A stretch of 64,000 nucleotides of DNA from Thiobacillus sp. 65-29 (GTDB lineage Bacteria; Pseudomonadota; Gammaproteobacteria; Burkholderiales; Thiobacillaceae), in NCBI GenBank assembly GCA_001899775.1, contig MKWN01000044.1, positions 1 through 64,000 on the forward strand. The letters run 5' to 3'. Shown here one piece after another: positions 7,803-17,520 of the stretch (positions are counted from its first letter, which is position 1; each line of letters begins with the position of its first letter). The translations under genes were made by a program, and so were the position numbers. Below the pieces are notes generated by a model. That model was not told the DNA's origin, did not search any database, and was given only the letters and a program-made list of their open reading frames with translations.

Positions 7803-10223
7803 TTATGGGGCCACGAAATCAGATGGCTGCCAGTTCACGGCTTGCCGCTCATACAGATATTTCTGGAACCCTGCAAACACACACCCAATCTCCGTCGGAC
7901 GGCCAAGGTCTGCAACGGCATCAGCAATTGACCCGCGATACTTCAACAGCAGCAGTGGTGTCAGTTTTGCCTGATCCAGCTCCTCGACCCCAACGCTGAC
8001 GTAATGATCGAGAACAAAGTCGAGGAAGTCTCGTTGCCTGTCGTTGAATTGCCTGGTGATGACCGTTCGCGCCCTGGCGGCGCGATCTTTCCGCGTGAGC
8101 GGCGTCAGAGCGTAAGCCACGTTTGCCAGCACGTCGAATATGTCGCTGTTTTCGGCGTCGATGATTTTCTGCATTTCGGCGAGCTGGTCTTTCCCGAAGC
8201 CTTTTTCGGCCAGCCCCTCCAGTAGTTTCCTGCGTGTGTCCGGTGCGCTCCAGATGGCGCGAAGCTCATCCTCATTCTTGAAGAACTCCGGCAGCTTGCC
8301 GAAGAGCGCTTCCACGAACTGCTGCGCCGACATGGGAGAGCCATCGGGGTGCCAGAAGGTCGTCACCATGATGTGCTGGATGGTGCGGGCCTTGCCGTCG
8401 GCCAGCTTGACGGTGGCCTTCTTCCTGCACACACACGGTACCTGCCCACATTTCGGGCATGGCGCCTGCTTGCACTCGCAAGGCTGCTTGCCGCAAACGT
8501 AGCAAGGTGGCGGAGGCTCCTTGATACAGACACAAGGATAGTGCCCGCACGCATTGCAGGTTTCCGGATCGACCGGCTCGCCGTCCCATTCGGTGTCGCT
8601 GAAATGGTGGTGCGCCTTCACGAAGTCGTAGATCGTGAAGTAGTCCTTGCCGTCATACAGCCGTGTGCCACGTCCGATGATCTGCTTGAACTCGATCATC
8701 GAATTGATCGGGCGCAGCAGCACGATGTTGCGCACGTTGCGGGCATCCACGCCGGTCGAGAGCTTCTGCGACGTGGTCAGGATGGTGGGGATGGTCTTCT
8801 CGTTGTCCTGAAAGTCCCGCAGATACTGCTCGCCCAGCGCGCCGTCATTTGCAGTTACGCGCACGCAGTAGAGCGGGTCGGTGCTGGTCTTGATCTGGTT
8901 GATCAGGTCACGGATCACCAGTGCGTGGGCCTGATTCGCACAGAACACCAGCGTTTTCTGTCGCTGGTCGATCTGCGACATGAAGATTTCGACCCGCTTC
9001 TTCTCGCGCTCGCGGATCTCGATGATCCGGTTGAAGTCGGCTTCCTCGTAGCGCTTGCCGGCCTCGATCTCGCCTTCGACAAGGGTGTCGTCGGGCGTAT
9101 AGACGTACTCGTCCAGCGTCGTCGCGATCTGCTTGACCCGGAATGGCGTCAGGAAGCCGTCGTTGATGCCGTCCTTGAGCGAGTAAGTGAACACCGGCTC
9201 GCCGAAATACGCATAGGTGTCCACGTTGTCGCGGCGCTTGGGCGTGGCCGTCAGGCCAAGCTGCACGGCCGGGGCGAAATAGTCGAGGATGCCGCGCCAG
9301 TTGCTCTCGTCGTTGGCACCGCCGCGGTGGCACTCGTCGATCACGATGAAGTCGAAGAAGTCCGGCGGATACTCGCCGAAGTAGGGCGAGGGCTTGCCGT
9401 TCTGCGGCGGCCCGCTCATGAAGGTCTGGAAGATCGTGAAGAACAGGCTGCCGTTCTTCGGCACCTTGCCTTTCTTGCGGATGTCCGCCGGCTCGATGCG
9501 CACCAGTGCGTCTTCAGGGAAGGCCGAAAACGACGTGAAGTCGCTCATTGCCTGATTGGCCAGATAATTCCGGTCGGCCAGAAATAGAATGCGCGGCTGG
9601 CGCGAAGGTTCATCGCCCAGATTCCAGCGCGATTGGAACAGCCGCCACGTAATCTGGAAGGCAATCGAGGTTTTGCCCGTGCCGGTTGCCAGCGTCAGCA
9701 GGATGCGACGTTGCCTGTCTGCAATGCGTTCAAGCACCCGGTTGACGGCGATTTCCTGATAGAACCGGATCTGCCAGGAGCCGCTCTTGTCGGGATAGGC
9801 CACGCCTGCAAACCGGTCGCGCCACAGATTCTGCGTGGTAAACGTGCGGTTCCAAAGTTCTTCCGGCGACGGGTACTGAGCCAGTTCGCCCTCGGCACCG
9901 GTATCCATGTCGATGCCATAGATGCCCTGGCCGTTGCTGGAATAAGTGAAGCGAATGGCAAGCTTTCCGGCATAGTCCTTGGCCTGGCCCACGCCTTCGG
10001 TCAGGGCTTCGTCCCAGGCCTTCGCCTCGATCACCGCCAGTTTGGTGTTGCGATACTCCAGCACGTAGTCGGCAACCACGCCCTTGGCCCGTTTGCCCGC
10101 CCCCTCCAGCCGGCCGGGCGTTATCGGGTACTCGCGGCGGATGCGGCTACCCTCCACCACGCCCCAGCCCGCCGCTTTCAGTGCGGGGTCGATATGTTCG
10201 GCGCGGGTCTCGGCTTCATTCAT
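7803..10223 (-). CDS. hsdR: Type I restriction endonuclease subunit R (EcoEI-like)
   Basis: 'TGTGKT', 'IVIDECHRGG', 'GLTATPKR', 'IIGRGTRL'; Cys-rich insert; start overlaps the fic stop. Confidence 0.93.
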   Translation of the reverse strand: MNEAETRAEHIDPALKAAGWGVVEGSRIRREYPITPGRLEGAGKRAKGVVADYVLEYRNTKLAVIEAKAWDEALTEGVGQAKDYAGKLAIRFTYSSNGQGIYGIDMDTGAEGELAQYPSPEELWNRTFTTQNLWRDRFAGVAYPDKSGSWQIRFYQEIAVNRVLERIADRQRRILLTLATGTGKTSIAFQITWRLFQSRWNLGDEPSRQPRILFLADRNYLANQAMSDFTSFSAFPEDALVRIEPADIRKKGKVPKNGSLFFTIFQTFMSGPPQNGKPSPYFGEYPPDFFDFIVIDECHRGGANDESNWRGILDYFAPAVQLGLTATPKRRDNVDTYAYFGEPVFTYSLKDGINDGFLTPFRVKQIATTLDEYVYTPDDTLVEGEIEAGKRYEEADFNRIIEIREREKKRVEIFMSQIDQRQKTLVFCANQAHALVIRDLINQIKTSTDPLYCVRVTANDGALGEQYLRDFQDNEKTIPTILTTSQKLSTGVDARNVRNIVLLRPINSMIEFKQIIGRGTRLYDGKDYFTIYDFVKAHHHFSDTEWDGEPVDPETCNACGHYPCVCIKEPPPPCYVCGKQPCECKQAPCPKCGQVPCVCRKKATVKLADGKARTIQHIMVTTFWHPDGSPMSAQQFVEALFGKLPEFFKNEDELRAIWSAPDTRRKLLEGLAEKGFGKDQLAEMQKIIDAENSDIFDVLANVAYALTPLTRKDRAARARTVITRQFNDRQRDFLDFVLDHYVSVGVEELDQAKLTPLLLLKYRGSIADAVADLGRPTEIGCVFAGFQKYLYERQAVNWQPSDFVAP

Positions 10224-11283
10224 CGTTCAGGGTGATCCGCGTCAAAAGCTCGAACAACGGCCGGTTGATGTAAAAGTTCGTGCGCCCGATCTTCCTCTTT
10301 TCCACAAAGCCATTTTTAGCCAGCGTATCCAGATGCTTGGCGGCCGTGATCCGCGAAACCCCCAGATCCTTCTCGACGAACTCGATTTTTGTATACGGGT
10401 AGCGGAACAGGTTATTCAGCAGCTCCTGGCTGTAAATTCTGGGCAGTTCATCGCGCAGCCGGTGCTTGGTGGCCTGCATCAGCGTACGCAAATTCTTCAC
10501 CAGCCTGATTTCGCTTCTCGCGGTGATGGCCACGCCTTTCACGATATACACGCACCAGTCCACCCAATCCCGCGTTTCGCGCGTCGATTGCAGCAATTGG
10601 TAATACTGGCTCTTGGTCGAAGTGATATAGCGGCTCAGATACAGCACGGGCAAATCCAGCAAGCCCTCGCGTTGCAGCATCAATAGATTCAGGATGCGCC
10701 CGGTGCGGCCATTGCCATCGTAAAACGGGTGGATGCTCTCGAACTGATGATGCGCAATCGCCATGCGCAACAAGGGGTCCAGCTCGTCATCCGCATGCAT
10801 GAACGCCACCAGATCCGTCATCAGCTTTTCGATCAGTGCGGCATCTTGCGGCGGCTCATACACGGTGGCGCCGGTGGTCTGGTTTTTCAGCACCGTTCCC
10901 GGCACTTTCCTGAAGCCGGCATTGTTCTGTTCGACCGCCTCCTGCACCCGCAAAATCGTGCTCATGCGGATCAGGCCGGAATCCACCACATCCTGAAAGC
11001 CCACACGCAAGGCGGCGATGTAGTTTTGCACTTCCTTTGCCGCAGGCGAGGCCGAGCTGCTCTGGTCGTACGCATACAGCTCATCGTGGGTGGTGATGAT
11101 GTTTTCGATTTCCGAACTGTCCTTCGCCTCCTGGATGGAGAGCGTATCCAGCAAGATGGCGCTGTTGGGCAGCGCTTCGCACAAGCCTTTCAGCTCGGCC
11201 AGATGGCGGTGCGCCTCGGCCAGGCACTGCCAGACTGCTTTCACTTCCAGGCTGGCGTGGCCAGGAATATCCAGTTCGGTCAT
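10216..11283 (-). CDS. Fic family protein with C-terminal winged-helix domain
   Basis: Fic motif HPFYDGNGRTGR; N-terminal inhibitory-type SSEIEN; wHTH 'LGVSRITAAKHLDTLAKNGFVEKRKIGR'. Confidence 0.92.
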   Translation of the reverse strand: MTELDIPGHASLEVKAVWQCLAEAHRHLAELKGLCEALPNSAILLDTLSIQEAKDSSEIENIITTHDELYAYDQSSSASPAAKEVQNYIAALRVGFQDVVDSGLIRMSTILRVQEAVEQNNAGFRKVPGTVLKNQTTGATVYEPPQDAALIEKLMTDLVAFMHADDELDPLLRMAIAHHQFESIHPFYDGNGRTGRILNLLMLQREGLLDLPVLYLSRYITSTKSQYYQLLQSTRETRDWVDWCVYIVKGVAITARSEIRLVKNLRTLMQATKHRLRDELPRIYSQELLNNLFRYPYTKIEFVEKDLGVSRITAAKHLDTLAKNGFVEKRKIGRTNFYINRPLFELLTRITLNDE

Positions 11284-11300
11284 GCGCTGCCCTTCACGGT

Positions 11301-11380
11301 GACGCGATAAGAAATTTCAAAAATCTTATCACGTCGCGGGCGACGTGTATAAAAAACACCCGTTTCTTATCACGTTGCGG
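11301..11380. promoter_or_regulatory. Three copies of TTTCTTATCRCGTYGC-like motif upstream of fic (candidate operators)
   Basis: 11301-11314 (inverted), 11324-11337 and 11363-11380 (direct). Confidence 0.55.
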
Positions 11381-11389
11381 TGCATGTGT

Positions 11390-11896
11390 TTAGCCCTGCT
11401 TGATGCCGTGCCCGGCCCAATAGTCAGTCGGCTTGTTGCGCGTTTCCTGCCCGGTCATGCGTTGCTGGATCCATTTCTCGCTGCGCCCGTGCTTTTGCCA
11501 GGTCTCGCGGGCGCGCTCCAGCGACAGCGCCGGGTCGGCCATTTCGCGCATGCGCTCGTAGCCGACCCTGGCCAGCCACAGCTTGATCGGCTCGGCCTTC
11601 GGGCTGGGCACGGACTGCACCAGCCGCAACAGGGTTTCGGCGGTGGCCACGTCGGTGAGATAGTTCTTGCCATCGGCGGCAGGCAATTTCAGTCGGTTAC
11701 AGTTTGTAACCGACTCACTGCCTTCTTTGGCCAAGCGGTTCTTCAGCACCTTCCAGTAATTTCTCGCCGCCTGGTAGTCGGGCTGCTGGGTCAGCACCTG
11801 CACGATGTCCACCACCGAGAACCACCAGGTTTCGGTGTCCTCGTCATAGACGCGCCGAATGGCGTGGGATTCAAACAGGGCGGACTGAATCTTCAT
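11390..11896 (-). CDS. BRO/antirepressor-like protein, probably C-terminally truncated
   Basis: N-terminal BRO-like 'WWFSVVDIVQVLT...ARNYWKVLKNRL'; ends abruptly at 'TDYWAGHGIKQG'. Confidence 0.7.
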   Translation of the reverse strand: MKIQSALFESHAIRRVYDEDTETWWFSVVDIVQVLTQQPDYQAARNYWKVLKNRLAKEGSESVTNCNRLKLPAADGKNYLTDVATAETLLRLVQSVPSPKAEPIKLWLARVGYERMREMADPALSLERARETWQKHGRSEKWIQQRMTGQETRNKPTDYWAGHGIKQG

Positions 11897-11907
11897 GGAC
11901 AGGCTCC

Positions 11908-13083
11908 TTAAATTTGCCCGCTGAAGGCCTGGTGCAGCAGAGATTTTTTCAGGTCGTCGAGCGCGGCCAGTTTTTGCTGGTAGAGGGATTCGAGGCGTTG
12001 GGTTTCGGTGGCGAGGGCGTCGAGTCGGGCCGCCATTTCACTCTGTTCCTTGAGTGATGGAAACGAGACCACAATCTTTCTCAAATCACCGATGTTGATC
12101 TGCATCAGTGCGGCGCCGTAGGTTTTGGCCCGGATTTGGCTCTGAACCGCTTCCGAAGTCATCAGGAAATAACCAAAGTCTTGCCGAATAAGTGATGGGG
12201 CGAAAACAATTGGCACGATGCCTCGGGTGACATTCGCTCCCGCAAGTTCCGGTGCGGTCACAGAAACGGCGCCGGTGCCTCCCCGAACACAGAGCAGAAG
12301 TTCGCCACCACGCAATGTCGTTCTTCGATAGCCATCGCCAATCTTGGGGTCAATCCGTTTCAATCCATCGAGCGTAATCGTCTTCGCCGTCAAATCCGTG
12401 GGGCGAACTACTGGCATGCCATTCGTGTAGTCGTGTCCAGGCTGGACGATGCCGTACGAGAGAGTACATTGTGCATCGACCACATCTTCAAGAGGTTTCT
12501 CCACCCATCCCTCACCCCGCTGCGCGAAAACAGATTGCAGGTGGCTCTCGAACAAGGCGCGGGCGTTCTGGAGGTTTTTTTCGGTGTTGGCCTTGGCGGT
12601 GGCGATGCCGTCGAAGGCTTCGTCGAGGATGGCGACGATGCGGTGTTGTTCGGAAAGCGGGGGGATCGGAAACTCGATGCCGAGAATTTGTTTCGACGAA
12701 AGATGCTTCACCGTGGCGAAGCCGGTTACGTCCTCGATTGCTTTCAGGTGGTCGTTTACTCCGTAAAACAAGAATCGAGGAACGAGTCCGCCGGAGAATC
12801 CCTGAAGCCTGCATACTCGTTGGTTAAGCAAGGCAGGCTCGCCTTTCCATTCGTAGCATCCAAACTCCCCATCCATCCCGATCAGCAAGTCTCCAGCTTT
12901 CACAACATACTTCTCGTCGTATTGGCCATCAAATCGAGTTTCGGTTTCTACCCCCGCTTTCAAACTGCGAATTCGGACAAGCGGTAGGCCCTTCGTGGTA
13001 TTGAAGCTTTTTGAGTCGAAGGCGTAGCCATTTTGAATTTGCAGCACATCGCCTAGTTGTTTGATTGCCCAGCCCATTTTCAT
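11908..13083 (-). CDS. hsdS: Type I restriction-modification specificity subunit
   Basis: Two target-recognition halves, 'IPPLSEQHRIVAILDEAF' and 'FPSLKEQSEMAARLDAL' helices; 4-bp overlap with hsdM. Confidence 0.93.
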   Translation of the reverse strand: MKMGWAIKQLGDVLQIQNGYAFDSKSFNTTKGLPLVRIRSLKAGVETETRFDGQYDEKYVVKAGDLLIGMDGEFGCYEWKGEPALLNQRVCRLQGFSGGLVPRFLFYGVNDHLKAIEDVTGFATVKHLSSKQILGIEFPIPPLSEQHRIVAILDEAFDGIATAKANTEKNLQNARALFESHLQSVFAQRGEGWVEKPLEDVVDAQCTLSYGIVQPGHDYTNGMPVVRPTDLTAKTITLDGLKRIDPKIGDGYRRTTLRGGELLLCVRGGTGAVSVTAPELAGANVTRGIVPIVFAPSLIRQDFGYFLMTSEAVQSQIRAKTYGAALMQINIGDLRKIVVSFPSLKEQSEMAARLDALATETQRLESLYQQKLAALDDLKKSLLHQAFSGQI

Positions 13084-16202: not shown

Positions 16203-16616
16203 TCGCGCGACTGCGTAAATTCGCACGAGACGGCACGCTACAGCGAAAAGCGCCTGCTCGAATGCAGCGCAGGACGTGCGGCATTCCTCGCTCGCATAAG
16301 CCGCAACGATGGCATCGTCGCGCCTACCGTGCGTCTCGGAGTCGTGGCGGAGCGGTTTCGCCTGCGGACGACGCCGCCGAAAGCGAAGGCGCAATACAGC
16401 CTTCATGGCTTTGGCTTTAACGACGGTGGCATCGCGACAGCGGCGCGAGAAGGTGGGGTACAGGGGCAGGCCTTTCCTTTTGCCTTCACGCTCCGGCCGC
16501 TCAGACAGAAGGGAGGATTAAGGAAAGACGCCGCCCCACGCTTCTCCTGCGCTCGCGACCCCTCGCTGTGGGCGGTACAAGCATTGCTCCCTGATTCGAT
16601 AACGGTTCATTGATCC

Positions 16617-16685
16617 CCCTAACGTCAGAGTTGAGCGGCCTCGCGCGGCTTTATGCGCGAGGCCCGCTCGAACGACGGGTTGGAC
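16617..16685 (-). other. Integron attC-like recombination site (69 bp)
   Basis: On minus strand: R'' GTCCAAC, L'' TCGTTCGAGCGG, stem GGCCTCGCGC/GCGCGAGGCC, L' CCGCTCAACTC (one-base bulge), R' GTTAGGG. Confidence 0.8.
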
Positions 16686-16998
16686 GTCGCTTGGCCGTGG
16701 CGCCCGGAGGCTGCTTGGAAGTCCCCGCTTCGGACAATCGGCCCGTAACGTACTTGTGCAAAACGCTAGCTATTAGTGTTTGGTACGGCACCCCTTCTTC
16801 CAGGGCTTTGACCTGAATATCATTCAGATCGCCAGAGGACAGGCGGATATTGACCCGGCGATCCTTGATCGCGGTGGCGCGCGCAGCGGCCTTGAACTTA
16901 GCAAGTTCGGCTTTCGTTGCAACAGACCTCAGTTGACCTTTCTCGAAGGCGTTCAACACTTCGAGTTCATATTCATCAATTTTCGGCATCTGGTTCAC
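16651..16998 (-). CDS. RHH/BrnA-like antitoxin
   Basis: 'RVNIRLSSGDLNDIQVKALEEGVPYQTLIASVLHKYVTGRL'; C-terminal residues encoded by the attC-like site. Confidence 0.78.
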   Translation of the reverse strand: MNQMPKIDEYELEVLNAFEKGQLRSVATKAELAKFKAAARATAIKDRRVNIRLSSGDLNDIQVKALEEGVPYQTLIASVLHKYVTGRLSEAGTSKQPPGATAKRRPTRRSSGPRA

Positions 16999-17269
16999 CT
17001 TGATTCAGATAGTCGCGGGTAGCCTTGCGGCTTGGGATCGCAGTCTTGAGGAAGAAGTAATCCTCCTCCTCGACGAATGGCACCAAGCAGGCGTAGTTGT
17101 CGCACGAGACGACAAGAACACGCTGCCTTGGATATTTCGACTGGTTCGGGTGAGCCAGGATGTCCAGCAACCCGGCAGACTCGATGGCGACCACGATGCT
17201 CTCAAACGAAATGCCCCGCTCAGACGAGAGCGCCCCATTCTTGTCGGCGTTCCAGCGAAATGGTCTCAT
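16976..17269 (-). CDS. BrnT-like toxin
   Basis: Small ORF directly upstream of and overlapping the antitoxin; 'FRWNADKNGALSSERGISFESIVVAIE' resembles BrnT-type 'W..K...N..KHGI.F'. Confidence 0.7.
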   Translation of the reverse strand: MRPFRWNADKNGALSSERGISFESIVVAIESAGLLDILAHPNQSKYPRQRVLVVSCDNYACLVPFVEEEDYFFLKTAIPSRKATRDYLNQGEPDAEN

Positions 17270-17318
17270 CGAGTCATCTTACGCTGATGTGTGCCTATTG
17301 TCACCACGGACTCAAGAC

Positions 17319-17340
17319 GCCCAACGTTTGAGTTCACCCG
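17319..17340 (-). other. Partial attC (3' half) upstream of the TA cassette
   Basis: Minus strand GTGAACTCAAACGTTGGGC: L' TGAACTC and consensus R' GTTGGGC; the 5' half is replaced. Confidence 0.6.
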
Positions 17341-17520
17341 CGGCCGGAAGCGGGCGCAGCCCGCTGTAGACCGTTCATCGCCTCGACGTAGGCGTTGCTG
17401 CGCCCGCCGAGCATGCCGCGTACGATGCCACCAAGGTAGTCCTTCAGCGTCGCGGCCAGGCGCTTGAACGGATCGCCGCGGCCGAGGCGCGCATCTCCAC
17501 GCGGCGCACCTCATCCATCG
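17341..17520 (-). pseudogene. Transposase C-terminal remnant (ISL3-like)
   Basis: Minus-frame translation GDPFKRLAATLKDYLGGIVRGMLGGRSNAYVEAMNGL... resembles ISL3-type C-termini, followed by frame loss. Confidence 0.5.

Follow-up and report, generated by a model that had tools for sequence, protein, structure and literature searches.

A probable stranded integron cassette with a divergent BrnT/BrnA-like toxin-antitoxin operon in Thiobacillus sp. 65-29

Clusters of attC cassettes without an integrase nearby, known as CALINs, are thought to represent degraded integrons, and those with a single attC site may be true positives; the default of IntegronFinder 2 is to report CALINs with at least two attC sites (PMC9024848). 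Cassettes that encode BrnT/BrnA toxin-antitoxin (TA) pairs are known from both chromosomal integrons and CALINs, and are reported to carry their own promoters (PMC7370490, PMC7923331, PMC8876359). Here, we describe a cassette located in a stretch of 64,000 nucleotides (the window) on contig MKWN01000044.1 (C44) of Thiobacillus sp. 65-29, the genome of which is a 2.9 Mb draft assembly in 61 contigs. Similar to a CALIN, the cassette has an attC site and no integron integrase (IntI) above the cut-off is listed on C44. It differs in that it contains one complete attC site and one half site, and falls below the IntegronFinder 2 default because only one site is complete, and also in that the truncated site is fused to a remnant of an insertion sequence and thus shows the route of degradation. 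Like the known BrnTA cassettes, it carries a BrnTA-type pair with a promoter of its own, but the subfamily is divergent and below the Pfam cut-offs, has an arginine at a key histidine position and an antitoxin tail that is encoded by the attC site. The chromosomal integron of Thiobacillus, as seen on contig C16 of the same genome and in relatives within the genus, has attC sites of the same style as the window and provides an IntI in the genome; however, it is located on another contig, and the array on C16 consists of only two complete attC sites and a truncated third. BrnTA cassettes, CALINs and single-attC CALINs have all been published, and the cassette in the window plainly belongs to a kind that is already known.

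The complete attC site is located on the minus strand at positions 16685-16617 and covers 69 nt. It consists of R'' (GTCCAAC), L'' with an extra C, a stem, L' and R' (GTTAGGG), and reads GTCCAAC CCGTC GTT-C-GAGCGG-G-CCTC ... GAGG CCGCTC AAC TCTGAC GTTAGGG, such that R'' pairs with R' and L'' with L', leaving the extrahelical base or bases that are characteristic of integron cassettes. The site was scored with a covariance model based on 23 attC sites from the vicinity of intI genes in relatives, with the variable loops trimmed and with the window, its own genome and the attC site of the homologous cassette omitted from the training. The training sites covary in 84 double-sided cells, versus 34 in shuffled alignments, and the covariation score of their structure is 0.43, versus at most 0.15 for slid structures. 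The site in the window scores 55.8 bits, with E = 5.7e-15 for the window and E = 2.5e-13 for the genome; all 58 model positions are matched and the alignment shown marks no broken pair. Only eight sites in the genome match the model with E < 0.01, among which this site ranks second; they are grouped in clusters that hold between one and three sites each, with one cluster adjoining IntI. The best score elsewhere in the genome, away from these clusters, is 17 bits. IntI recombines the bottom strand of attC, and the fold of this strand has a z-score of -4.5, equalled by none of 200 shuffles, while the top strand with its flanks gives z = -3.5. An Rfam search of the whole window at the gathering thresholds gave no match, which is not informative for attC. 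Judged by its sequence and predicted fold, this is a confirmed attC site, for which recombination by IntI is predicted. The architecture given in the preliminary description of this DNA is correct in letters and coordinates, and the check with a covariance model that was proposed there gave a very strong match. The alternative raised in the same description, that the site belongs to an unrelated family of palindromic repeats, is excluded by the small number of clustered sites in the genome, with one cluster beside IntI.

The R' sequence GTTAGGG had been described as deviating from the GTTRRRY consensus at its last base. The letters are correct, but they do not represent a mutation. IntI crosses over at the point G^TT, so that, once an attC site has been integrated, its final six bases are supplied by the DNA that follows it. 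The first bases of the cassette are TTGGGC, which follow the G of the upstream crossover point, and its last base is the G that precedes TTAGGG; the unit spans 702 bp on the minus strand (17324-16623). Its start, GTTGGGC (17325-17319), pairs with R'' at seven of seven positions, including one G-T pair. GTTAGGG is thus the start of the downstream DNA rather than a damaged R', and it also ends other attC sites in the relatives. Searched against 300 genomes from the order, the downstream DNA (16400-16640) gave no recognisable cassette homologue, and hence no sign of a following cassette. On the same side, near the cassette, an open reading frame on the minus strand at 14615-13080 resembles by eye the methylase subunit of a type I restriction-modification system (HsdM-like), so that the cassette is located in a possible defence neighbourhood.

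Upstream of the toxin gene, the minus strand contains the 3' half of an attC site (17369-17319) from a lost upstream cassette, with an inner stem, L', a spacer and R' (GTTGGGC). The half site reads GCGGGCTGCGCCCGC...GGGTGAACTCAAACGTTGGGC, ends with TGAACTC-AAAC-GTTGGGC at about 17337-17319, and is matched by a complete attC site of another genome (G051, L005), with 85% identity across 47 nt. It scores only 12.7 bits in the window because the 5' arm, with R'' and L'', is missing. The bases upstream of 17369 correspond to the C-terminal region of a transposase of the ISL3 family (17520-17368, minus strand), which is decayed, internally deleted and fused to the half site. The protein matches to this remnant are below the cut-offs (21.1 bits to PF01610 and 20 bits to NF033550), and two longer copies of the transposase gene align to it with 80% and 75% DNA identity up to position 17368, where both alignments stop. 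The homology to attC begins where the homology to ISL3 ends, which places the junction at 17369/17368 to within one base and implies that a join at TCTAC removed R'' and L'' of the preceding site. The half site had also been pointed out in the preliminary description, and it is real. Since the upstream site is a 3' half attC that is cut at an ISL3 remnant, the cassette is most likely the remainder of a longer array, and most likely at least one more cassette once preceded it.

The same unit was identified in another Thiobacillus genome (G013, L080), in which the counterpart of 17324-16623 shows 77% identity over 726 alignment columns. The order of promoter, brnT, brnA and attC is the same in both cassettes. 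The cassette in G013 is flanked by an upstream attC site (41.5 bits) and by its own attC site (53.7 bits), and both of its neighbours differ from those in the window. A unit bounded by the G^TT points has thus moved as a whole between differing neighbours, which bears out the earlier suggestion of a gene cassette. An array of eight attC sites in G004, on a contig that also carries IntI, includes the pair as a decayed copy. The same array (G004:C61, L078, minus strand 2500-689) holds two different complete cassettes of the brnT type in addition to the decayed copy. The same covariance model was applied to 80 close relatives from GTDB genomes and placed an attC site at a cassette border in at least 16 of them; most of the 80 have no attC site nearby, and by this measure the BrnT-like family of the window toxin occurs both inside and outside of cassettes. 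A search of plasmids with the toxin retrieved only relatives with less than 60% identity, and there is therefore no sign of this toxin in sequenced mobile integrons.

The two genes run in the same direction just upstream of the complete attC site, as had been described. The brnT-like toxin gene (17269-16976, minus strand) encodes 97 amino acids, and the brnA-like antitoxin gene (16989-16651, minus strand) encodes 112 amino acids and overlaps the toxin gene at its start. A small RelE-like toxin that is followed by an overlapping CopG/RHH antitoxin is the arrangement of a BrnTA-type operon. The toxin matches PF04365 with 20.5 bits (E = 6e-4), short of the curated cut-off of 34.5, and the antitoxin matches PF12441 (CopG_antitoxin) with 26.7 bits (E = 1e-5), which just misses the cut-off of 28, and the BrnA antitoxin family NF047399 with 17.5 bits against a cut-off of 60. 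The label BrnT/BrnA-like from the preliminary description therefore stands for these real reading frames with one refinement: by sequence, the pair is divergent and below the curated cut-offs for membership. Close relatives of the toxin were identified in 80 cases. Its AlphaFold model has a pLDDT of 90, and the best structural matches in the PDB are the toxins HigB, RelE, ParE and MqsR, none of them significant; a sequence search of the PDB gave a single weak match (7vd7, E = 0.84), and PADLOC gave none. The genome also encodes three further, canonical BrnT toxins that pass the Pfam cut-off (C16:43622, C38:76005 and C47:74486). The antitoxin gene runs into the attC site, which contains its final 11 codons and its stop codon, and the tail of the antitoxin is thus encoded by attC; the antitoxin has a different tail in G064, where no attC site was found by the copy. 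In the BrnT homologue Aave_1720, H18 and F29 matter for toxicity (PMC10714953). The window toxin instead has Arg18, which is invariant in 45 relatives, and Ile29, as matched by position. By analogy with the BrnTA model, type II autoregulation and RNase toxicity are predicted for the pair, but the RNase activity of the toxin is uncertain because it has, by position, neither the histidine nor the phenylalanine that matter in Aave_1720.

Between the start of the cassette and brnT there is a sigma-70-like promoter, GTGACA-17-TAAGAT (17304-17276, minus strand), with a -10 hexamer that ends 6 nt before the ATG of brnT. It is the only promoter-like site in 1.1 kb, in which 0.3 such sites are expected, and its position and sequence are kept in nearly all of the 80 relatives. 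Most of them have a TANNNT hexamer at a near-fixed spacing, usually with its end 6 nt ahead of the start codon. The -35 hexamer is overlapped by a conserved box of 17 bp, GGTGACAATAGGCACAC (17305-17289, minus strand), and a box with at most three mismatches to GGTGACAAAAGGCACAC is placed 16-20 nt before the start codon in 79 of the 80 relatives (L095-L174). We regard GGTGACAATAGGCACAC as a probable operator. From the usual geometry of promoters, the transcript would probably start at the A of the ATG and yield a leaderless toxin mRNA, and leaderless TA mRNAs have been documented in Mycobacterium tuberculosis, as indicated in PMC8485053. A more tentative idea, against which the odds lean somewhat, is that the BrnT-like subfamily represents a distinct toxin-first system, with a promoter and operator at one fixed distance, a leaderless mRNA and catalytic residues unlike those of BrnT.

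The window contains no integrase, as had been stated, and the only IntI above the cut-off in the genome is encoded on C16. This protein of 327 amino acids matches TIGR02249 with 487 bits, contains the GTGMR, HTLRH and LGH motifs, the tyrosine motif and the IntI-specific insert, and looks intact. The description of the cassette as an orphan is hence correct locally, for contig C44, but not for the genome as a whole. The search for intI and further attC sites that had been suggested showed that IntI on C16 is followed by two complete attC sites and a third that is cut short, and revealed clusters on contigs C23 and C32. The integron on C16 (L009, 10384-12560) comprises IntI, a cassette for an unknown protein of 370 amino acids, a cassette with an Imm33-like immunity domain and a third cassette, in which repeats of the type AAAATGGGGTCAGACTCGATTTC truncate the attC site. 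We also considered whether this truncated 5' half and the 3' half in the window are the parts of one split site, and rejected it, as the arms are by inspection not complementary. The three attC sites on C23 belong to cassettes for a pyrimidine-dimer glycosylase-like protein, a cation efflux protein and a DUF389 protein. This cluster (C23:160000-179000; L076, about 9838-12623) has no integrase and is placed beside an open reading frame with a DUF772 transposase domain. Two further attC sites are located at C32:4145-4710 (L175), on a contig of 6 kb. Together with the cassette in the window, the genome thus contains three attC clusters away from IntI.

We favour the reading, at a probability of roughly 0.8, that the window contains an integron cassette with a divergent BrnT/BrnA-type operon that is the last readable unit of an otherwise lost array, with IntI on C16. 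It is based on the match to the attC model and the covariation in its training sites, the unit in G013 and the array in G004, the attC sites at the borders in at least 16 of the 80 relatives, the IntI motifs, the junction of half site and ISL3, and the conserved promoter. The single and isolated position of the cassette could also mean that IntI inserted it on its own at a secondary site of the genome, similar to the recombination at attG sites that is described in the literature, as indicated in PMC12901181, in which case the half site would be due to chance or be a separate feature. We consider this unlikely, since the stretch of 51 nt that leads up to the crossover point resembles attC, with the 85% identity to a real site noted above, and since the ISL3 homology stops exactly at the start of the half site, which fits a truncated attC site and not a random target.

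It is far less probable that the isolation is an artefact of assembly or binning and that the cassette belongs to the array on C16. The genome is a draft in many contigs and attC repeats can confuse assembly, but the cassette is located in the interior of a contig of 92 kb, with a genus-wide TauE gene and a CMD gene as its flanking genes and a decayed insertion sequence on one side, and C16 extends beyond the end of its own array. The scarcity of attC sites near most of the 80 relatives would be in line with an ordinary chromosomal TA locus beside a palindromic repeat that merely looks like attC, and it does show that the BrnT-like family also lives outside of cassettes. Yet this explanation is the least credible of all and is already contradicted, as the unit travels with its attC site in another species (G013) and the site combines its genome-wide E-value with a canonical geometry that only eight sites in the genome share.

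Under the favoured reading of a stranded cassette, the folded attC site would have allowed IntI to capture the cassette and place it beside another one. A deletion associated with ISL3 would then have eliminated the cassettes ahead of this one, together with the 5' arm of the attC site that precedes it. Without this arm, the usual excision between two attC sites is expected to fail, and the cassette would be trapped, while its own attC site could still accept new cassettes. In a search of relatives for an empty site, the TauE region matched every genus member searched, the downstream DNA was unshared, and strong matches to the CMD gene were obtained in only 4 of 56 genomes. As no relative shows an empty site, the order of these events is one that we infer. 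What led to the probable stranding is visible at base resolution, with the preceding attC site cut by the remnant of an insertion sequence and an integrase that persists elsewhere in the genome, and G013 provides a homologous copy for comparison that is still arrayed. The pair would not need the integron promoter Pc, because its own promoter and probable operator are placed just before the start of the toxin gene. The rigid promoter and the probable leaderless start bear on how TA cassettes can be expressed without the promoter of the integron. If the subfamily does represent a separate system in which the toxin comes first, its self-sufficiency would allow expression of the cassette at any landing site, stranded positions like the present one included.
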